The notes beneath the pieces were generated by a model. It saw only the letters and a program-made list of their open reading frames with translations, ran no database searches and had not been told where the DNA came from. The translations under genes and the position numbers were made by a program. A stretch of 64,000 bases of DNA from Blautia coccoides (GTDB lineage Bacteria > Bacillota > Clostridia > Lachnospirales > Lachnospiraceae), in NCBI RefSeq assembly GCF_034355335.1, contig NZ_CP136422.1, positions 1,367,001 through 1,431,000 of the forward strand. Direction: 5' to 3'. This document shows positions 44,102 through 55,869 of this stretch, in pieces. Positions within the stretch are counted from its first letter, which is position 1. The number at the start of each line of letters is the position of its first letter.

Positions 44102-45400
44102 ATGAATTACAAAGAAGCAAGAGTATATTTGGATGAAGTGTCCAAATACGGAAGTGTACTTGGTCTGGATAACATGAGAGAGCTGCTCATGCGGCTTGGA
44201 AATCCCCAGGATGATCTGAAGTTTATCCATATTTCCGGTACCAATGGAAAGGGGTCAGCACTCTCATATATGTCTACAATCCTTTCCGGAGCGGGCCTGC
44301 GGACAGGCCGGTACATCTCTCCCACCCTCTATGCCTACCGGGAACGGATCCAGGTGGACGGGGAAATGATAGACAGGGAATCTCTGGCTGCCCTGGTGAC
44401 CATCGTCAAAGAGGCAGTGGATGCCATGGAGGCAGAGAATAAGGGAAATCCAACGGTATTTGAAGTGGAGACTGCCCTGTCCTTTTTGTATTTTAAAGAA
44501 AAGAAATGTGACATCGTAGTGCTGGAGACAGGACTGGGAGGTACTCTGGATGCCACCAATGTGGTGAATACCACTGTGATAGAGATGATTTCCTCCATTG
44601 GCATGGACCACATGGAGTTTTTAGGTGGAACACTTCAGGAGATCGCGGAGAATAAAGCGGGGATCATCAAGCCGCACACATGGGTGGTGAGTGCGGAACA
44701 GGACCCGAAAGCGGCCGCAGTGATCCAGCGGGTGTGCCGTGAAAAAGACTGCAGACTGGCAGTTGTGGACCCGGCTGCCTTTCGGGATGTGCAGTATGGA
44801 TATGAGAGACAGACCTTTACATATAAGAACTGGGAGAATGTGGAGATCACGCTGGCGGGAACCTATCAGGTGACCAATGCGGCTTTGGCGCTGGAGGCTG
44901 TGGAGGCTTTGCGGAAGCTGGGATATGATTTGTCAGAGGAACAGGTGAGAAAGGGCATGAAGGAAGCTTTCTGGAGAGGGCGTTTTTCTGTGATCCACAA
45001 AAACCCGGTGGTTGTCATAGACGGTGCCCATAATCCGGCTGCGGCCAAGGTGCTGAAGGATTCACTGGAGACTTATTTTAAAGGGAGAGACCTGCATTTT
45101 ATCTTCGGTGTGTTCGCGGACAAGGACTATGAGAGTGTGATCCGGATGACAGCGCCTCTGGCAAAGCATATTATCACCATACAGACACCGGGCAATCCCA
45201 GGGCACTTCCGGCAGAGAAGCTAAGGGATGCGGTCAGAAGCGTCAATCCCAGTGTGGAGGCAGCGGGCAGCATACGGGAAGCGGTGGAAAAAAGTATGGA
45301 AAATGTACAGAAAGATGATGTGATCGTAGCGTTTGGCTCCCTGTCCTTTTTAGGGGAGCTTGACCGGGAAGTACAGGCCATGGAGGGAGAAAAAACATGA
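44102..45400 (+). CDS. folC: folylpolyglutamate/dihydrofolate synthase FolC
   Basis: 432-residue Mur-ligase-like enzyme that joins glutamate to dihydropteroate and/or extends polyglutamate tails of folates. Seen: the P-loop [14 protein letters not shown] near residue 42, [28 protein letters not shown] and the C-terminal [15 protein letters not shown]. First gene of the folate operon; its stop overlaps the folE start (ATGA). Confidence 0.95.
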
Positions 45401-45951
45401 ACCAGGATAAGATAAAAGAGGGAGTACGCTTGATTCTGGAAGGGATCGGGGAGGATGTAGACAGAGAAGGACTTTTGGAGACACCGGACAGGATTGCCCG
45501 CATGTATGAGGAACTGGCAGGTGGATATACGGACGATGCCGGTGTGCACCTGAAAAAACGTTTCCATGTGGACAACAATGATATGGTGATGGAAAAGGAT
45601 ATTCATTTCTATTCATTCTGTGAACACCATATGCTTCCCTTCTATGGGAACGCGGCCATTGCCTATATTCCCAACGGGGAAGTGGTGGGTCTGAGCAAGA
45701 TTGCCAGGACAGTGGAGGTGTTTGCCAAGAGATTCCAGCTTCAGGAGCGGCTGACAGCCCAGATCGCGGATGCTTTTATGGAGGAGCTGAAGCCAAAGGG
45801 TGTGATGGTGCTGGTGCAGGCAGAGCATATGTGCATGACCATGCGGGGAATTAAAAAACCGGGAACAAAAACGGTATCTGTGGTGACAAGAGGTGTCTTT
45901 GATGACAATGAAAGCCTGCAGAATTCCTTTTACCGAATGTTGGACTGCTGA
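45397..45951 (+). CDS. folE: GTP cyclohydrolase I
   Basis: 184-residue type I enzyme, converting GTP to 7,8-dihydroneopterin triphosphate, the first step of folate synthesis. Seen: [13 protein letters not shown], the zinc site [12 protein letters not shown] near residue 72, [23 protein letters not shown] and the second zinc Cys in [10 protein letters not shown]. The 4-bp overlap with folC couples translation. Confidence 0.96.
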
Positions 45952-46009
45952 TAAAAAGAATAAGTTTAGACAGTATTATTACGATATATGGGCAAAAGAG
46001 GACCGGAAA

Positions 46010-46513
46010 TTGAAAGATAAGAGCAGGGATATGACAAGGGTAAACAGGATATGGAATCATTCTGTTTACCAAAGTGGTTTACATAATATAGAAGAGCTGG
46101 AGCGGGAACGTATTTTCTGCGGTCACGGGGTCCGGCATCTGTTGGATACAGCAAGACTTGCGTATATTGAGAATCTGGAGATGGGTCTGGGTATTTCAAA
46201 AGACATGATCTACGCGGCAGCCCTTCTGCACGATATAGGCAGAGGCCTGCAGTACACAGAGGGCATTCCCCACCATGAGGGCGGAGTGACGATCGCAGGC
46301 CCCATACTTAGGGAGTGCGGGTTTTCAGATGCGGAGACAGAGGAGATCCTGGATGCCATCAAAGGACACCGGGATGCCTCCGTGAAAGCTGCCAGAGATC
46401 TGGCGGGAATCCTCTACCGGGCGGACAAGGGTTCCAGGTGCTGCTTTTCCTGCCCTGCAGAGGCAGAGTGCAAATGGAGTGCGGAAAAGAAAAACATGTA
46501 TTTGACAGTGTGA
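46010..46513 (+). CDS. HD-domain hydrolase embedded in the folate operon
   Basis: About 167 residues. HD motif: RHLLDTARLAY and ALLHDIGRGLQY (metal-binding His and His-Asp), with further His in GIPHHEGG and a C-terminal Cys cluster CCFSCPAEAEC that may bind metal. The start is uncertain: a TTG at 46010 has AGAGGA 7 bases upstream; an ATG at 46031 has a poor ribosome binding site. It sits between folE and folP and could remove phosphate from dihydroneopterin triphosphate, the step for which many bacteria lack an assigned enzyme; this is inference from position only. Confidence 0.85.
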   Translation: MKDKSRDMTRVNRIWNHSVYQSGLHNIEELERERIFCGHGVRHLLDTARLAYIENLEMGLGISKDMIYAAALLHDIGRGLQYTEGIPHHEGGVTIAGPILRECGFSDAETEEILDAIKGHRDASVKAARDLAGILYRADKGSRCCFSCPAEAECKWSAEKKNMYLTV

Positions 46514-46655
46514 GCGTATTGAAGAAACAGAAGATATAGACTGCGCCGGAGTGCGTTTGGGAAGGGGTTCCTGCAAGCTGCGGGTTACAGTATGCAGAGA
46601 GCAGTTTTAAACGCTTTCCGGCAGTAAAAATACAGGAAAAAGGAGACAACAGGAA

Positions 46656-47474
46656 ATGAAAATCGGAAACAGGATATTTGACACAGAACATGACTGCTAT
46701 ATTATGGGTATCTTAAATGTGACCCCGGACTCCTTTTCAGACGGCGGAAAGTGGAACGACATGGAGAGGGCAAGACAGCATGCTGCGGATATGATTGCCG
46801 AGGGGGCAGCCATTGTTGACGTGGGAGGGGAGTCAACCCGCCCGGGTCATCAGCAGATCACTGTGCAGGAGGAGATTGACCGGGTTGTGCCTGTCATTGA
46901 GATGCTGAAGCAGGATTTTGACATTCCCGTATCCATAGACAGCTACAAAAGCCAGGTAGTGGAGGCAGCCTTAAAAGCAGGGGCAGATATGGTAAATGAC
47001 ATATGGGGCTTTAAGTATGACAAAAAGGTCGCGGAACTTACCGCCCGTTATCAGGTTCCCTGTTGTCTGATGCACAACAGAGAGAAGGCAGAGTACACGG
47101 ATTTTATGAAGGATATGTGTATGGACCTGAGAGAATGCGCAGAGATCGCAAGAGAAGCAGGTGTGGCAGAGGATAAGATCATCCTGGATCCGGGTGTGGG
47201 ATTCGGAAAAAATTATGAGCACAATCTGACAGCCATAAATCATCTGGAAATGCTGAAGGAGATAGGATATCCTGTTCTTCTGGCAACCTCCCGAAAATCC
47301 GTGATCGGCAATACTCTGGATCTGCCCGCAGATCAGAGGGTGGAGGGCACCCTTGTGACCACTGTCATGGGTGTGGAAAAAGGAGCGGCCTTTGTGAGAG
47401 TCCACGATATAAAAGAAAACCTGCGCGCCATTCGCATGACTCAGGCGATCCTGCGGGAAAGAAAGGGAATGTAG
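46656..47474 (+). CDS. folP: dihydropteroate synthase
   Basis: 272-residue TIM-barrel enzyme condensing 6-hydroxymethyl-7,8-dihydropterin diphosphate with p-aminobenzoate; the target of sulfonamides. Seen: MGILNVTPDSFSDGGKW, VDVGGESTRPGHQQI, DSYKSQVVEAALKAGADMVNDIWG, DPGVGFGK and ATSRKSVIG. Start at 46656 behind AAAGGAG. The 142-bp stretch before it has no gene and no clear hairpin. Confidence 0.96.
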   Translation: MKIGNRIFDTEHDCYIMGILNVTPDSFSDGGKWNDMERARQHAADMIAEGAAIVDVGGESTRPGHQQITVQEEIDRVVPVIEMLKQDFDIPVSIDSYKSQVVEAALKAGADMVNDIWGFKYDKKVAELTARYQVPCCLMHNREKAEYTDFMKDMCMDLRECAEIAREAGVAEDKIILDPGVGFGKNYEHNLTAINHLEMLKEIGYPVLLATSRKSVIGNTLDLPADQRVEGTLVTTVMGVEKGAAFVRVHDIKENLRAIRMTQAILRERKGM

Positions 47475-47477
47475 CAT

Positions 47478-48308
47478 ATGAATCTGGAAAAATTTGATAA
47501 GATAACCATAGAGGATTTAGAGATATTTGCAAATCACGGTGTATTTCCCGAGGAAAATAAGCTGGGACAGAAGTTCATGGTCTCAGCCATATTATACACA
47601 GATACTGTGCGGGCAGGCAGAACAGACGAGCTGGAGGCATCCATTGATTACGGCGCTGTGAGTCATTTCATCACATCTTATATGCAGAAGCATACCTTCA
47701 AGCTTTTGGAGGCTGCTGCGGAGCATCTGGCAGAGGAGATGCTCAGAAGCATTGCCCATCTGGAGGCTGTTACCCTGGAAATAAAGAAACCATGGGCACC
47801 TGTGGGACTTCCCCTGAAAACCGTGTCCGTGAAGATAACAAGGGGTTGGCATACCGCCTATATTGCCCTTGGCTCCAATCTGGGGGATAAGAAGGCATAC
47901 CTGGATATGGCTGTGGAAGAACTGGACAAGACCGTTGGATGCAAGGTACTGAAAGTTTCAGATTACCTGGTGACGGAACCCTACGGCGGAGTGGAACAGG
48001 ATGATTTCCTGAATGCCTGTCTCAGCATGCGCACTCTGTACAACCCGTTTGAGCTTTTGGAGCGGATGCATGAGATTGAGCAGGCCGCCAAAAGAGAGCG
48101 CCTGGTACACTGGGGACCGCGGACTTTGGACTTGGATCTGCTGCTGTTTGACGATGAGATCATTGATACGGAAGAATTGATCGTGCCGCATGTGGAAATG
48201 CATCTGCGGGATTTTGTGCTGGTTCCGCTGGCGGAGATCGCGGGGTGGAAGAGACATCCGATTTTGGGGAAGACGGTGAGGAAGTTGGCTGCGGAATTGA
48301 ATGGATGA
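47478..48308 (+). CDS. bifunctional dihydroneopterin aldolase / HPPK (FolB-FolK fusion)
   Basis: 276-residue fusion. Residues 1-118 are FolB (IEDLEIFANHGVFPEENKLGQKF, DYGAVSHFI, EIKKPWAPVGLP), which cleaves dihydroneopterin to hydroxymethyl-dihydropterin. Residues about 122-276 are FolK (AYIALGSNLGDKKAYL, VTEPYGGVEQDDFLNAC and WGPRTLDLDLLLFDDEII), which adds pyrophosphate. Three bases after folP, so one operon. With folC, folE and folP this gives the whole branch except the phosphatase step. Confidence 0.95.
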   Translation: MNLEKFDKITIEDLEIFANHGVFPEENKLGQKFMVSAILYTDTVRAGRTDELEASIDYGAVSHFITSYMQKHTFKLLEAAAEHLAEEMLRSIAHLEAVTLEIKKPWAPVGLPLKTVSVKITRGWHTAYIALGSNLGDKKAYLDMAVEELDKTVGCKVLKVSDYLVTEPYGGVEQDDFLNACLSMRTLYNPFELLERMHEIEQAAKRERLVHWGPRTLDLDLLLFDDEIIDTEELIVPHVEMHLRDFVLVPLAEIAGWKRHPILGKTVRKLAAELNG

Positions 48309-50272: not shown

Positions 50273-53200
50273 TTGAAGAGAAGAATAGAACAACTGATAA
50301 ATGGAAGATTTGAATACGAGGTTCCAAGCCTTTTGCTGTCCATGGAAGAGATCAGGGAGCGCACAAAGGCAGGGGAAAATATCAGGGGAAAGCTGATAAT
50401 AGCAGCAGAGAACGGGAGTCGCATAAAAGGGATCGCCTATTCTTCCCATCGCCGTTTTCTTCTGGGAAAAGAGCGTTTTACCGGGGAGAAGATAGAGATT
50501 CCGTACGGAGCTGATGTAAAAGGCCTGAATCCCGGGGATTCCTTTGAGGGAGAAGTGGTGCTGAGTACCAGCATCGGTGAGCACAGGATCCCCTTTCATA
50601 TACAGGTAGAGCCCTGCCGCATCAAGACGTCAGCCGGCTCCATCAGGGACTTGGATGCCTTTGCAGAGCTGGCGAAAAAGGATTTTAAAGAGGCGTACCA
50701 CCTGTTTTTGGACGATTCCTTTCCGGAACTTCTGAAAGAGGAACAGGAGGTTCTGCCTTACTATTATGCCATGGCCAAGAACCCTGTGACCTGGCAGCAT
50801 CTGGAGGAATTCCTCATCGGTACAGGCAAAAAAGAGCCTGTGAAACTTCATCTGGAGCAGGAAAAGCTGGAGATTTATGAGGTGCAAAGCTCTCTTATGG
50901 ACAGCGTCCGTGTGCGCAGAAGCGGATGGGGATATCTGAAGGCCAGTGTGAGTGTGGAAGGCGATTTTCTGGAAGTGGAGAAAAAGTCCATCCGGGACGA
51001 GGATTTTATCGGCAGCGTTTATGAGCTGGAGTATATTATTCGCAGAGAGAACCTGGGCCGGGGCAGGAATTACGGCAGGATCTGTATCAAAACCGTTTAC
51101 CAGACCCTTGTATACGAGGTCATGGCTTCCAAGAGCGGCAAGATCCAGGTCAATGTCACGGCTTATGAGAAGAAAAAGAAACTGGAGCTTTTAAGGGATT
51201 ATCTGGATCACAGCCTGGAAAAATTGTCAAAAAGCCAGTGGGAGAGTAAGACCTTAGAACTTCTCATCGAGCTTCGGGAGACCGGGCATTACACCACAGA
51301 ACACCAGTTATTTGAAGTGTGGTTCTACCATGAATGCGGGGAGGACGGCAAAGCAAGAGAAGCCTTTGATAAGCTGAAGGACAACAGCCGGATCCAGGCT
51401 GAGGAGGAGTTAGAAGGGGTTTATCTCTATCTGGAGGACATATTGGGCTGCAGCCAGGATATCCGGGAGAAGATGGTAGTGCGTCTCCATCAGCTTTACC
51501 AGCGCAGGGAGGACAGCTTCCTTCTGCTGTATCTCCTGCTGAAGACGGACTCCGAACAGGTGCGGACCCAGTCCAAGAAGATCTATCTGCTGGAGGAGCA
51601 GTACAGAACCGGCTGCAGAAGCCCGTTTCTCTATCTGGAAGCGTGCCGCATTGCAGCAGGGGACGGGGCACTGCTGCGCAGGATCAGCCCCTTTACCATC
51701 CAGGTGCTGCTCTTTGCCATGCGGCATGACATTATGACAGAGGAGATGGCTTTTAGAGCTACAGACCTGGCCGGACAGATGAAGGACTTCAGCCGGAAGG
51801 TATACGAGATCCTGGAATATATCTATGAGAAATTTCCATCTACAGCCGTGGTGCGCTCCATCTGTATGCTGATCATGAAGGGAGATCCCAGGAAGAAGGA
51901 ATACTTCCGCTGGTATGAGCTGGCAGTGGAAAAAGAGCTGAAGATCACAAGGCTGTATGAGTATTATATTGAGACCATGAGCCGCAATTACCAGAAGATG
52001 CTTCCGCGCATGATCCGCATGTATTTCAGCTATAACAATACCTTGAGTGACGCGAAAAAAGCCTTTGTGTACAGCAATGTGATACGCAATAAGGAAGTGG
52101 ACAAGACCACTTATCTAAGCTATAAAAGCAGTATGGAACAGTTTGCCTGCGAGAAGCTCAAAGAGGGCAGGATGAATGAGGATTTCGCTGTTGTGTATCA
52201 GGAATTCTGTTTGAATTCCCATGATCCCGCAGTGAAGAGAGCTCTTGCTAAGGTGCTTTTCACCCACAGACTTTACTGTGATGATCCCAAGATACGCCGG
52301 GTGATCGTCCGTCATGCGGCCTTCCGGGAAGAACAGACGTATACCTGTACGGACAAAGTGGCCTATGTGTCCATTTACACGCCGGACGCCAGGATCGTCT
52401 TTGAGGACGACAGGCAGAGACGTTATATCCAGACCATAGATTACAATATCCAGCCTCTTCTGGAGAGAAAAGAACTGGCAAGACAGCTTTTGGCTGAAGG
52501 GATCAGGACCCCCGGACTTCTGCTCTACACCTGCGGTGAGCTGAACCACGAGAATCCCATAACAAGAGAGAACATTTCCTGCATCCAGGATGTTTCCGGG
52601 GAGGAATGCTTCTCTGAGGATTACAGGCAGAGAGTGCGCAGACGTCTGCTTCTCTACTACGAGGAGCATATGGACAACGACAATCTGAAGGATTATCTGA
52701 GAGAGATGGATTTTCACAGCTTTGCAAAGGTCAACAAGAGCCTGCTCATCACCATTTTGATCAAACAGGGGATGTATGTGGGAGCTTATGATCTGTTGTG
52801 TGAATACGGGTATGAGGAGATAGACCCGAGAGACCTGCTTAGGCTGTGCAGCCGTATGATACTCAATCTGGAGTTTGAATACGAGGAGGAGCTGCTTTTA
52901 CTGGCTCACCATATATTCAGGGAGAATACCTATGATGAGGTGGTCCTTGAATATCTGACCAAGTATTTTGAAGGACCTGTAGACGAGATGATCCGGGTAT
53001 GGGAGCGCTCCATGGGATTTTCCATAGAGGCGTATGAGCTGGAGGAAGACATTCTGACATACAGTATGTTTACCAGGATCTATCATCCAAAAGACGCTGC
53101 AGTCCTGAAAGATTACGTAAAATTAAGCGGCAAGGAACAGGTGATACTGGCATATTTAAGCTTTGCGTCTTTCCAGTATTTTGTGGGGGGAAAAGAGGCG

Positions 53201-53815
53201 GAGGAGTTTATTTTCCGCTCATTGGAGCATGTGAGGAAAAAAGGATGGGAGTACGATATTGTATGTGACCTGGCCCTTCTCAAATACTATGCGGAGGATA
53301 ATAAATGGGAAGAAAGCAGGGTGGAGACAGCCCGTTCCATTCTGACCATATGTGCCAGGACAGGGCTTAAATTCGCCTTCTTCCAGGAGCTTCCCAGAAC
53401 TCTTTTGCAGAGAATGCAGCTTGAAGACAAGGTGTTTGCCCAGTGTCAGGCCAGTCCCAGGGCGGATGTGACCATTTACTACCGCATGCTACAGGCAGAC
53501 AGGGAGCCGGGAGAGTTCAAAAAAGAACCTCTGAAAAATCTGTATCAGGGTATTTATAATAAAGAATTTATCCTGTTTTACGGTGAGGTTCTGGAGTATT
53601 ACTTTACTGTCTCAGCGGGCGGGGAAGTTAAAGAGACCGGAAAGAACAAGCTCACTGTTCCGGAGGCAAAGCTGGAGGGGACTACCAAGTACCAGATGAT
53701 CAACCGTATGCTGGCGGCGAAACAGCAGGGGAGAGAGCAGGAGCTTATGGAACTGCTTGGACAGTACAGGCAGCAGGAAGCGTGGGTTTCCTCTCTCTTT
53801 GAACTGATAGAATAA
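50273..53815 (+). CDS. DUF5717 family giant helical-repeat protein
   Basis: 1180 residues, TTG start with GGGG about 9 bases upstream; the family N-terminus (RRIEQLINGRFEYEVPSLLL) supports this start. Residues about 25-290 are beta-rich with two Ig-like segments (GKLIIAAENGSRIKGIAYSS; IYEVQSSLMDSVRVRRSGWGY). From about 300 to the end it is an alpha-solenoid of TPR-like helices rich in Tyr, Leu, Glu and Arg, with no membrane segment. No enzyme motif seen. It looks like a large cytoplasmic scaffold. It is 16 bp before the DUF5716 gene; both, with a small TPR gene, form one operon. Confidence 0.85.
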   Translation: MKRRIEQLINGRFEYEVPSLLLSMEEIRERTKAGENIRGKLIIAAENGSRIKGIAYSSHRRFLLGKERFTGEKIEIPYGADVKGLNPGDSFEGEVVLSTSIGEHRIPFHIQVEPCRIKTSAGSIRDLDAFAELAKKDFKEAYHLFLDDSFPELLKEEQEVLPYYYAMAKNPVTWQHLEEFLIGTGKKEPVKLHLEQEKLEIYEVQSSLMDSVRVRRSGWGYLKASVSVEGDFLEVEKKSIRDEDFIGSVYELEYIIRRENLGRGRNYGRICIKTVYQTLVYEVMASKSGKIQVNVTAYEKKKKLELLRDYLDHSLEKLSKSQWESKTLELLIELRETGHYTTEHQLFEVWFYHECGEDGKAREAFDKLKDNSRIQAEEELEGVYLYLEDILGCSQDIREKMVVRLHQLYQRREDSFLLLYLLLKTDSEQVRTQSKKIYLLEEQYRTGCRSPFLYLEACRIAAGDGALLRRISPFTIQVLLFAMRHDIMTEEMAFRATDLAGQMKDFSRKVYEILEYIYEKFPSTAVVRSICMLIMKGDPRKKEYFRWYELAVEKELKITRLYEYYIETMSRNYQKMLPRMIRMYFSYNNTLSDAKKAFVYSNVIRNKEVDKTTYLSYKSSMEQFACEKLKEGRMNEDFAVVYQEFCLNSHDPAVKRALAKVLFTHRLYCDDPKIRRVIVRHAAFREEQTYTCTDKVAYVSIYTPDARIVFEDDRQRRYIQTIDYNIQPLLERKELARQLLAEGIRTPGLLLYTCGELNHENPITRENISCIQDVSGEECFSEDYRQRVRRRLLLYYEEHMDNDNLKDYLREMDFHSFAKVNKSLLITILIKQGMYVGAYDLLCEYGYEEIDPRDLLRLCSRMILNLEFEYEEELLLLAHHIFRENTYDEVVLEYLTKYFEGPVDEMIRVWERSMGFSIEAYELEEDILTYSMFTRIYHPKDAAVLKDYVKLSGKEQVILAYLSFASFQYFVGGKEAEEFIFRSLEHVRKKGWEYDIVCDLALLKYYAEDNKWEESRVETARSILTICARTGLKFAFFQELPRTLLQRMQLEDKVFAQCQASPRADVTIYYRMLQADREPGEFKKEPLKNLYQGIYNKEFILFYGEVLEYYFTVSAGGEVKETGKNKLTVPEAKLEGTTKYQMINRMLAAKQQGREQELMELLGQYRQQEAWVSSLFELIE

Positions 53816-53831
53816 GGAGGCAGACTAGGGC

Positions 53832-55079
53832 ATGAATGAGACAAGAAATATTATTGCAGGCCTGGAACTGGGAAAGGAATTTTCCCAGATCTGCTATTAT
53901 GACAGAAAAGAAAAAGAGCCTGTCTCCATTTCCGTGAAGACAGGCAGCAATCAGTATACATTTTCAACCAGGCTTTCCAAAAGGCCCAGAACAGAGGTGT
54001 GGCACTTCGGTATGGAGGCGGATTATTTTTCCATGCATGAGGGGGAAATCCCGGTGGACAACCTGCTGGAAATCTGGGCACAGGGAGAACCGGTGGAGAT
54101 AGACGGGGGCTGGTACAGACCCGAGGAATTGCTGGAAATCTATCTAAAGGGCTGCCTGTCCGTTCTGGGTGTAGCAGAGCCGGCAAGACAGATCAAAACG
54201 CTGATGATAACCGTTCCGGACCTGAACCGGGTGCTGGTGCGCAAGCTTCAGAGAGTGTGCAGCCGTCTGAAATTCACCTCCGGACAGGTGCTTCTGCAGG
54301 ATTATGAGGAGAGCTTTTACTATTATGTGATGAGCAAGAGACTGGACAACTGGAACCGGATGACAGGACTTTTCACATTTGAAAAGGGAAAGGTTTCTTT
54401 CTCCCGCATGGTGGTTGACAGCCAGAAAAAACCCATGCTGGTCACAGTGGAGCACGGTAAGACCATAACCCTTCCCGAAGACCCGGACCAGAAAGATGTG
54501 GATTTTTATCAGCTTATAGCGGATTCCTGCGGCAATGATACATATGCGGGAATATATCTGGTAGGTAACGGCTTTTCAAAGGAGTGGGCAGTGAGAAGCG
54601 TGCCCCTTCTGTGCAAGAACCAGCGCCATGTATATTATGGAAATAATATGTATGTGAAGGGCGCCTGCTACGCGGCAAGAGAGCGGACAGAGGAGAAGCT
54701 TCTGGGCACATATCTGTATGTGGGAAATGCTCTGGTGCAGAACCATGTGAGCATGGAAATGCTGGTCCAGGGGGCAAAAAAGAATTATACAGTTGCTGAA
54801 GCGGGAAGAAACTGGTATGAGACAGAGCATGAGTTTGAACTGCTTCTGGACGGCAGAGAGGATCTGGAATTCATGGTGAAGCCTATGGAGGGCGGGGAAG
54901 TCAGACATTACTGCATGAAGCTGCCGGGACTTCCGAAAAGGCCTGACAGGACTACAAGACTCAGGGTACATGTCATGTATGAATCTGCGGACACCTGCAT
55001 TATTCTGGTGCAGGATCTGGGATTCGGGGAGATGTTCCCCTCAAGCGGCCTGATGTGGACCGAGAGAGCAGCGTGGTAG
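53832..55079 (+). CDS. DUF5716 family Hsp70-like ATPase-fold protein
   Basis: 415 residues. The order of elements resembles the Hsp70/actin nucleotide-binding fold: IIAGLELGKEFSQICYY (phosphate 1-like), IKTLMITVPDLNRVLVRKL, LLQDYEESFYYYV, then GLFTFEKGKVSFSRM at the phosphate-2 position (the DLGGGT Asp and Gly are not conserved), YAGIYLVGNGFSKEW (adenosine-like) and YVKGACYAARE. A beta-rich C-terminal part follows (about 310-400). It may bind nucleotide weakly or not at all. The fold assignment is my inference from motif order; the DUF call rests on memory of the family. Middle gene of a three-gene operon. Confidence 0.78.
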   Translation: MNETRNIIAGLELGKEFSQICYYDRKEKEPVSISVKTGSNQYTFSTRLSKRPRTEVWHFGMEADYFSMHEGEIPVDNLLEIWAQGEPVEIDGGWYRPEELLEIYLKGCLSVLGVAEPARQIKTLMITVPDLNRVLVRKLQRVCSRLKFTSGQVLLQDYEESFYYYVMSKRLDNWNRMTGLFTFEKGKVSFSRMVVDSQKKPMLVTVEHGKTITLPEDPDQKDVDFYQLIADSCGNDTYAGIYLVGNGFSKEWAVRSVPLLCKNQRHVYYGNNMYVKGACYAARERTEEKLLGTYLYVGNALVQNHVSMEMLVQGAKKNYTVAEAGRNWYETEHEFELLLDGREDLEFMVKPMEGGEVRHYCMKLPGLPKRPDRTTRLRVHVMYESADTCIILVQDLGFGEMFPSSGLMWTERAAW

Positions 55080-55089
55080 GAGGAAAGAG

Positions 55090-55869
55090 ATGAGCGGATA
55101 CATATTATGTCAGATAAAGCGGGCTTCCCTTCCGTTTTATATTGAGAACATCAGCACGAATATCTACAGCATAGAAGAATTATGTTATTATCTCTACCAC
55201 AACATTTATCTGCTGGACGAGACGATCATCAATGAGCATCTCTGCGACTGGATAAAGAACGAGCTGGGACTTTTAAAGCTCTACCAGAAGCTGTACCGGA
55301 TCCTGGAGGAGGAGCGGGGGGCAGGGGATTTTATCCTGGCTGTATTCAGGGAGATCAATTACCTGACCCATGAGCAGTTTAAAAAGCTGAATGAGGAACT
55401 TGTTGTTTTGGAACAGCTTCCCGATGTGGCGCGCAAGAAGAAAAAAGGTGACTATCTGGTTGACAACAGAATGTTCGTAAATGCCATACGAATTTACGAG
55501 GACGCACTCCGAAGTGTGGATACCGGAGGCCTGGGTGGACAGTATGAGGGAGAGATTTATCACAATATGGGCTGTGCCTATCTGCATCTTTTCCAGATGG
55601 ATGAGGCCAAGTCCTGTTTTGAAAAGGCATATGAAAAGCTTCACACCAAACGGATCCTGAAGCATTATCTGTGTGCCTGCAGGATGATCATGGAAGAGGC
55701 CCAGTGGCAGGGAGAATGTGCCAGAATGGGTGCGGATCTTGAGACCTGCAGGGAGATCCGGAAAGAGATGGAATCCCAAAAAGCTGCCGATTCCCAGGAG
55801 AAGCAGGAGGATATAGGGGCTGTTTTGGAAAAATACACAAAAGAATACCACAGAAGCACCGGATTTTAG
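55090..55869 (+). CDS. TPR-containing small protein of the DUF5717/DUF5716 operon
   Basis: 259 residues. N-terminal half helical (IEELCYYLYHNIYLLDETII), then a TPR-like pair near residues 130-200 (MFVNAIRIYEDALRS, YHNMGCAYLHLFQMDEAKSCFEKA). No signal or membrane segment. It begins 10 bp after DUF5716. TPR proteins are classical partners of Hsp70-type proteins, fitting the possible Hsp70-like neighbour. Function unknown. Confidence 0.82.
   Translation: MSGYILCQIKRASLPFYIENISTNIYSIEELCYYLYHNIYLLDETIINEHLCDWIKNELGLLKLYQKLYRILEEERGAGDFILAVFREINYLTHEQFKKLNEELVVLEQLPDVARKKKKGDYLVDNRMFVNAIRIYEDALRSVDTGGLGGQYEGEIYHNMGCAYLHLFQMDEAKSCFEKAYEKLHTKRILKHYLCACRMIMEEAQWQGECARMGADLETCREIRKEMESQKAADSQEKQEDIGAVLEKYTKEYHRSTGF

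Follow-up and report, generated by a model that had tools for sequence, protein, structure and literature searches.

What do three adjacent genes of Blautia coccoides, encoding a DUF5717 protein, a DUF5716 protein, and a tetratricopeptide repeat (TPR) protein, amount to, and is the cassette a divergent Hsp70-like machine, as a sequence-only reading had suggested? The genes are situated in a stretch of 64,000 nucleotides (hereafter the window) of the 6.1 Mb host genome, at positions 1,367,001 to 1,431,000 of contig NZ_CP136422.1 in assembly GCF_034355335.1 (C1:1367001-1431000). They are arranged head to tail, with coordinates given in window positions:

50273..53815, + strand: DUF5717 gene, 1180 aa, TTG start (open reading frame (ORF) call; Pfam PF18984 over residues 1-868, PF18983 over residues 871-1176)
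53832..55079, + strand: DUF5716 gene, 415 aa (ORF call; Pfam DUF5716_C)
55090..55869, + strand: TPR gene, 259 aa (ORF call; TPR match at residues 155-182)

The ORF coordinates confirm the gaps of 16 bp (DUF5717/DUF5716) and 10 bp (DUF5716/TPR) given in that reading. The window proteins score above the curated Pfam cut-offs for DUF5716 and DUF5717 (DUF5717_N 9.6e-265, DUF5717 6.5e-100, DUF5716_C 5.2e-101), and the third protein matches TPR_8 at 1.3e-6; in an NCBIfam scan, the TPR protein had only matches far below cut-off and the other two proteins had no match. The most likely answer is that this "machine" is a reduced, ATP-independent derivative, the Hsp70 hunch being right in ancestry. As a whole explanation, a probability of roughly 0.7 is given to the trio being the reduced remnant of a dedicated Hsp70 machine.

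The evidence begins with DUF5716, which contains two domains:

53832..54701, + strand: DUF5716 residues 1-290, Hsp70 nucleotide-binding-domain fold without subdomain IIB and with altered phosphate motifs
54729..55076, + strand: DUF5716 residues 300-415, domain resembling the beta substrate-binding domain (SBD-beta), signature LPxRPxxTTRL...DLGFGExxPSSG

In structure comparison, an actin-like nucleotide-binding domain is followed by SBD-beta, the same order as in Hsp70. Foldseek returned Hsp70, DnaK, BiP, Hsp110, RAC, or Ssb titles in 48 of the 50 rows listed (best E 2.7e-18), the other two being unnamed chains of ciliary central-pair structures. The alignment used for the DUF5716 structure comprises 103 of 239 distinct listed proteins plus the window protein, which is 98% identical to the cluster "DUF5716 family protein [Blautia]" and 97% identical to its best named locus, in Blautia parvula. 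The link is also visible at the sequence level. The DUF5716 family profile finds DnaK in the PDB at 4.4e-8, and a profile–profile comparison with a sister-family orthologue, here called B, gives 4.2e-59 across 416 columns. B carries DUF5716_C (1.5e-26) and HSP70 (1.4e-17) on one protein, as do 115 of its 120 listed relatives, and the window protein itself has no direct Pfam HSP70 (PF00012) match at E up to 1. DUF5716 thus descends, with near certainty, from Hsp70. The Hsp70-like element order that had been read in the 415-residue protein is borne out by both the fold search, where the Hsp70/actin fold is present, and the profile homology.

B belongs to a longer operon in the sister families of the order. 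Twenty regions were fetched from the order sample (146 genomes): 19 from families other than Lachnospiraceae, where 50 genomes match DUF5716, and one from an extra Lachnospiraceae genome (G417). In 16 of the 19, the gene order is DUF5717, Hsp70 A, c0, B, Hsp70 C, an Hsp70 with a VWA domain (D), and TPR, sometimes followed by a coiled-coil protein with two transmembrane (TM) segments. The sizes are approximately 390 plus 900 aa or one ORF of 1006-1326 aa for DUF5717, 554-571 aa for A, 564-645 aa for c0 (279 in L166), 472-542 aa for B, 539-572 aa for C, 690-725 aa for D, and 382-393 aa for the TPR protein. A few operons hold small extra ORFs, and DUF5717 is cut by the edge of the stretch in several. 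Only c0, B, and C lie within the stretch at L177 and L182; L169 carries A through D, interrupted by inserted genes, with neither DUF5717 nor TPR in view. In L175, Pfam assigns HSP70 to A (5.1e-76), C (7.4e-63), and D (4.5e-96, with VWA at 1.9e-10), and five repeats to the TPR protein. The C-terminus of c0 is a GrpE domain (3e-13 in L175, 2.6e-11 in L178, 2.2e-9 in L181, and 5.4e-12 in L166). Defluviitalea phaphyphila is a named member. As separate observations, the D and TPR genes of L166 (G329) are each split over two ORFs, by decay or assembly error, and constraint within the operon is very unequal, D being 73-90% identical to the L175 copy in 12 sister loci and B 25-69% in eight locus-derived rows.

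Eight catalytic positions (T11, T12, K70, E147, G171, G172, G173, and T174 in Blautia DnaK numbering) were followed through a 77-row alignment that includes the host DnaK. It contains the first 12 of 17 A proteins, the first 12 of 19 C proteins, all 19 B proteins, nine D proteins (of 16 found, the first ten were taken and those longer than 600 aa kept, so that a short D piece of L166 was left out), and 23 DUF5716 proteins picked for spread; the identical A rows of L174 and L175 are counted twice. All eight positions are kept in every A, C, and D row, 0-3 in the B rows, and 0-1 in the DUF5716 rows, the window protein keeping one. Among the 19 B rows, the two aspartates are retained in 19 and 18, and the two glycines of the GG motif in 19 and 16, so that this motif is mostly kept. 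In DUF5716, the GGGT and TTN loops are lost and the second glycine of the adenosine motif is found in 0 of 23 rows. Furthermore, the spacing from the phosphate-2 to the adenosine motif shrinks to 59-74 residues in the 23 DUF5716 rows, compared with 133-181 in the DnaK, HscC-like, A, B, C, and D rows.

This shortening has a structural counterpart. The window DUF5716 has no counterparts of Blautia DnaK residues 192-223, 233-281, and 539-625 (the lid end); the protein stops after SBD-beta, and the alpha-helical lid (SBD-alpha) is missing. The GrpE-contact span of E. coli DnaK, which, by the numbering offset between the two DnaKs, we take to be approximately residues 229-276 of Blautia DnaK, falls in the missing stretch, so that the lobe gripped by GrpE is the part lost in DUF5716. 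The excerpts available of PMC10825016 place the GrpE contacts of E. coli DnaK in subdomain IIB, at residues 255-272 and the hairpin 276-302, and describe IIB as the part that nucleotide exchange factors rotate and that closes the cleft.

Judged from these residues, DUF5716 very probably does not hydrolyse ATP, and the proposal of an ATP-driven chaperone in the window is not supported, because the ATPase residues, subdomain IIB, and the lid are missing. That an ATP-driven Hsp70 works here with a TPR co-chaperone is hardly probable: an Hsp70 fold and a TPR partner are present, and the sister operons carry three Hsp70s with intact sites, but at most one of eight catalytic positions survives in any DUF5716 row, IIB and the lid are gone, and no operon-type GrpE is found in the 80 Lachnospiraceae genomes searched. 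In eukaryotic-style pairs, a TPR protein binds the C-terminal EEVD tail of Hsp70. This rule does not account for the DUF5716/TPR pairing, the window DUF5716 ending in ...TERAAW.

The history of the locus follows from the tree and from the distribution of c0. In the 77-row tree, A, C, and D form one clade each and DUF5716 forms one clade (99/98), which joins B of L166 (99/96), the remaining B rows forming two adjacent groups. DUF5716 is thus closest to paralogue B of the longer operon, and L166 is transitional, having a long operon and yet a B that is already closest to DUF5716. The c0 profile has strong matches in 52 of the 146 genomes of the order sample, all outside Lachnospiraceae: 51 of 53 sister genomes with DUF5717 (missing G338 and G451) plus G373. 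No full-length c0 match was found in the 80 Lachnospiraceae genomes; of 15 matches there, 14 are ORFs of 200-263 aa aligned to the last 70-90 positions only, as in canonical GrpE, and the other is partial (positions 240-476, in a 253-aa ORF). The Lachnospiraceae loci lack A, C, D, and the operon GrpE, and DUF5716 has further lost subdomain IIB; the lid is absent, as it is in B. The trio is very likely a reduction from the longer operon. In the simplest history, A, c0, C, and D would have been lost at the locus in the Lachnospiraceae ancestor, and the already degenerate B would have been kept and then lost IIB; in this family the dead Hsp70 would thus have survived and the live ones disappeared. 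The host genome also has DnaK and an HscC-like Hsp70, which cluster with each other and lie outside A, B, C, and D alike; the same Hsp70 search gave a 366-aa ORF that is MreB-like by eye. As an observation apart, the HscC-like Hsp70 (564 aa, L187:1264-2958, near G000:C1:3050377) has intact audited ATPase positions and is preceded at 17 bp by an ORF (L187:2-1246), TPR-rich by eye, which makes a separate Hsp70–TPR pair.

The reverse direction, in which the trio came first and the sister operons later acquired further Hsp70s and GrpE, draws on a tree that cannot be firmly rooted and on a B that is degenerate in the sister families too, with 0-3 of 8 catalytic positions. It is nevertheless improbable: in the sister families, B still has IIB, the two acidic residues, and in most rows the GG motif, and is surrounded by intact paralogues; the long-operon GrpE spans many families of the order sample; and L166 has its transitional form.

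The trio is conserved as a unit. In the family sample (80 Lachnospiraceae genomes, one per genus, with the window's genus represented twice), DUF5716 is present in 78, with one match per genome, and DUF5717 in the same 78. Eighty-one trio loci were compared, from the 77 other family genomes with a match, three phylum-sample genomes, and the window. In 78 loci, DUF5717 lies ahead of DUF5716 on the same strand, in 71 of them at a gap of 50 bp or less; of the exceptions, L093 and L164 end at contig edges, and at L114 the genes are truly apart. Downstream of DUF5716, a TPR gene is present in 80 of 81 loci, as a separate gene in 76 (69 of them with a gap of 50 bp or less) and as a fusion in four. 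Among 80 named loci, 70 hold all three genes, nine DUF5716 and TPR, and one DUF5716 and DUF5717, some contigs ending there. Thus, across the 81 loci, the genes usually stand together and not apart. In the phylum sample, DUF5716 occurs in 4 of 249 genomes, all Lachnospiraceae and including the window's genome, and in the class sample DUF5717 occurs in 10 of 246, nine of them Lachnospiraceae; the tenth match (G562) is weak, below cut-off, and was taken as chance. In the order sample, DUF5716 is found in 67 genomes (50 outside Lachnospiraceae, often as two adjacent matches) and DUF5717 in 70, with 66 in common; G373 has DUF5716 alone (weak, below cut-off), and G366, G386, G441, and G450 have DUF5717 alone. 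G451, labelled as another family, has the Lachnospiraceae-like form without the operon GrpE and may be contamination (5%). At L130 (G050), two ORFs of 327 and 834 aa make up a split DUF5717, with one TAG inside according to the genome search.

The surroundings vary within a recurring set of genes, the labels CobC, rarA, and valS being presumed from sequence. A CobC-like aminotransferase gene lies upstream in 27 Lachnospiraceae loci (divergent in 26), and a window neighbour has an aminotransferase Pfam match; a valS-like gene lies downstream in 26, and a rarA-like gene occurs in 16, in 14 of them two or three genes 5' of DUF5716 on the same strand. An aminotransferase gene is likewise divergent upstream in six long-operon loci and a valS-like gene downstream in four (L166, L172, L176, and L181), with both in two, so that these flanks are common to the long operons and many Lachnospiraceae trio loci.

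This distribution bears on the idea that the trio is a module for conflict or defence, comparable to the chaperone-based systems described by Kaur et al. 2020, the GAP1-N2 neighbourhoods with HSP70, GrpE, and FNIII-TPR proteins. The parts lists are similar (PMC7159879), and the PADLOC candidate PDC-M61B matches L175 C (8.7e-11) and D (4.4e-7), matches that perhaps arise via the Hsp70 domain. However, the presence in 78 of 80 family genomes, with one DUF5716 match each and recurring neighbours, speaks against such a module, PADLOC has no match for the three window proteins, and no GAP1 or GTPase match was found among the L175 operon proteins scanned or the ten window neighbours. A defence role is accordingly very improbable.

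Several observations weigh against a reduced, ATP-independent remnant. At the first acidic position of DUF5716, 16 of 23 rows have D and five have E (including the window protein), the phosphate-2 aspartate is kept in 12 (T in the window protein), the first glycine of the adenosine motif is kept in all 23, and single rows retain one catalytic residue, for example K70 in one and T11 in one. Nucleotide binding is compatible with the loss of the catalytic residues. The tree is midpoint-rooted only and has long branches, the direction of change resting on parsimony; B itself is degenerate, so that catalytic loss predates the Lachnospiraceae form. An Hsp70 search of the other 79 Lachnospiraceae genomes gave several matches in most of them (among the matches listed), which may include A, C, or D copies away from the locus. 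Two family genomes (G022 and G075) have neither DUF, L114 (G030) has DUF5716 and TPR with DUF5717 on another contig, the one clear exception of order, and one locus (L148, G069) shows no TPR gene downstream in the 3 kb read.

The retained nucleotide-site residues bear on the strongest rival, in which DUF5716 binds ATP or another nucleotide without hydrolysis and acts as an Hsp110/Ssz1-like co-chaperone or exchange factor for DnaK. It is rather unlikely. Subdomain IIB, which exchange factors rotate and which closes the cleft (PMC10825016, excerpts), is missing; DUF5716 has also lost the GGGT and TTN loops, together with the second glycine of the adenosine motif; and no J-domain Pfam match exists in the trio.

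Returning to the reduced remnant, gene fusions bear on how its proteins act. Four of 81 loci (L104, L117, L133, and L137) encode DUF5716 and the TPR protein as a single ORF of 684-723 aa, which requires at least two changes on the tree, and a fifth fusion (692 aa) is found at the named locus L062 (Lachnospiraceae UBA1066). These fusions argue that the two proteins act together. In addition, translation of the second and third genes is likely coupled, because each ribosome-binding sequence overlaps the preceding stop codon:

53815..53820, + strand: AGGAGG ribosome-binding sequence for the DUF5716 gene, overlapping the DUF5717 stop codon (read directly)
55078..55083, + strand: AGGAGG ribosome-binding sequence for the TPR gene, overlapping the DUF5716 stop codon (read directly)

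From the fusions and the coupling, DUF5716 and the TPR protein may bind each other, and DUF5717, as the constant neighbour that is jointly absent in two genomes, would be the third partner. That the three window proteins form a physical complex is probable, and they would make up one cytoplasmic complex. What had been proposed as a dedicated Hsp70/TPR complex is therefore upheld in part: the Hsp70 fold and ancestry, the conservation of the trio as a unit, the DUF5716–TPR fusions, and the sister multi-Hsp70/GrpE operon with the same flanks in some loci favour it, and an ATP-driven activity is not supported.

DUF5717 would supply the scaffold. Its AlphaFold model (pLDDT 87.7, pTM 0.60), for which the alignment holds 64 of 70 fetched homologues plus the window protein, contains beta-sandwiches at residues 20-112 and 192-285 and helical repeats at 295-660 and 732-1046, and thus displays the Ig-like segments and the helical solenoid expected of the 1180-residue protein:

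50327..50614, + strand: DUF5717 residues 19-114, Ig-like / PapD-ASH-type beta-sandwich (fold match only)
50840..51142, + strand: DUF5717 residues 190-290, second beta-sandwich (model)
51155..53410, + strand: DUF5717 residues 295-1046, two helical-repeat stretches (295-660 and 732-1046) flanking a small beta insert (664-728) (model)

Structure searches with the whole model gave matches of repeat type or Ig type only. A relationship to ciliary or pilus proteins, suggested by the ASH/PapD-like matches, was dropped, since the matches reflect one common domain fold.

In the mechanism envisaged, the pseudo-ATPase domain of DUF5716, having no ATP cycle, would be the body on which the TPR protein and the DUF5717 scaffold dock, and the beta-domain would bind a client or partner peptide at low affinity, by analogy with Ssz1. 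Without hydrolysis and a lid, any such binding would be both fast and weak; the same has been argued for Ssz1, a protein that has no lid and binds ATP without hydrolysing it (PMC7083937). That the trio works as an ATP-independent scaffold or holdase falls a little short of even odds. Equally tentative is the view of a nucleotide-free Hsp70 complex in the Lachnospiraceae core, with a dead Hsp70 as hub, in which the live ATPases, GrpE, and the lobe that GrpE grips were lost and the scaffold and the TPR protein kept.

A fourth gene hints at where the complex might act. It encodes 379-504 aa with two hydrophobic stretches (nine members scanned) and coiled-coil-like arms on either side (by eye), and comes after the TPR gene in 32 of the 81 Lachnospiraceae loci (e.g., L097:9592-10791). 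Its profile matches four sister loci (L166, L172, L176, and L181; E 1e-68 to 5e-42) and is strong in 30 of 80 Lachnospiraceae genomes; the genome search did not find it in the window's own genome, and two members scanned have no Pfam family above cut-off. Because this two-TM protein is part of the cassette in many relatives, although this genome lacks it, the complex could be an assembly platform for proteins at the inner face of the membrane, a guess that we consider doubtful. Separately, a zinc-ribbon-like TPR protein (cluster c11, approximately 456 aa; by eye) lies at least two genes past the TPR gene in 11 loci (e.g., L122, L134, and L138), often behind valS.

Promoter and terminator scans gave counts near the shuffle mean (12 promoters against 7.8, sd 3.4; 5 terminators against 5.6). 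A CIRCE-like scan, aimed at heat-shock control and covering the window and loci L086-L186, found none in the window and only L115 (one mismatch) and L154 (three mismatches) among the loci. On the 5' side of the trio, window positions 44102-48308 hold folate-type genes for a Mur-ligase-type protein, GTP cyclohydrolase I, and a fused FolB-HPPK.

Read as a reduced Hsp70 remnant, two DUFs that a dominant gut family carries in 78 of 80 sampled genomes become a protein complex open to testing. The reading also offers a natural contrast between sister families with live and dead Hsp70s and their own GrpE-domain protein and a Lachnospiraceae locus with the dead one only, which allows one to ask how the Hsp70 fold is used without ATP and whether the exchange factor and the lobe it grips were lost jointly.

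Among known systems, the window proteins match Pfam DUF5717 and DUF5716, whose descriptions assign no function. A literature search that covered few subscription papers returned no description of the Hsp70 link, the longer operon, or a catalytically dead bacterial Hsp70 of this kind; among the papers searched, DUF5717 appears in none and DUF5716 in one, unrelated by title. DUF5716 resembles DnaK/Hsp70 (PF00012) in having an actin-like domain and a beta substrate-binding domain in the same order, and is linked to it in sequence via the profile and the bridging orthologues, but differs in lacking the canonical ATPase residues, subdomain IIB, the alpha-helical lid, and any PF00012 match at E 1. 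Compared with Ssz1, the non-canonical Hsp70 of the ribosome-associated complex (RAC), the trio differs in its partners, TPR and DUF5717, and in that DUF5716 is also without IIB; no J-domain partner of the Ssz1/RAC type was found by Pfam in the three window proteins. The nearest published parts list is that of the GAP1-N2 neighbourhoods, whose second theme, in Kaur et al. 2020 (PMC7159879), combines HSP70, GrpE, a second, reduced HSP70, and a beta-sandwich protein fused to TPR. HSP70 and GrpE likewise occur together in the sister operons and not in the window, and no GTPase or GAP1 match was found in ten window neighbours, in A, B, C, D, TPR, and c0 of L175, or in DUF5717 of L174. In contrast to GAP1-N2, DUF5716/DUF5717 are near-universal within one family, in the sister operons four Hsp70 paralogues and VWA are accompanied by a GrpE-domain protein of 564-645 aa (279 aa in L166), and the Lachnospiraceae loci keep the degenerate Hsp70 only.

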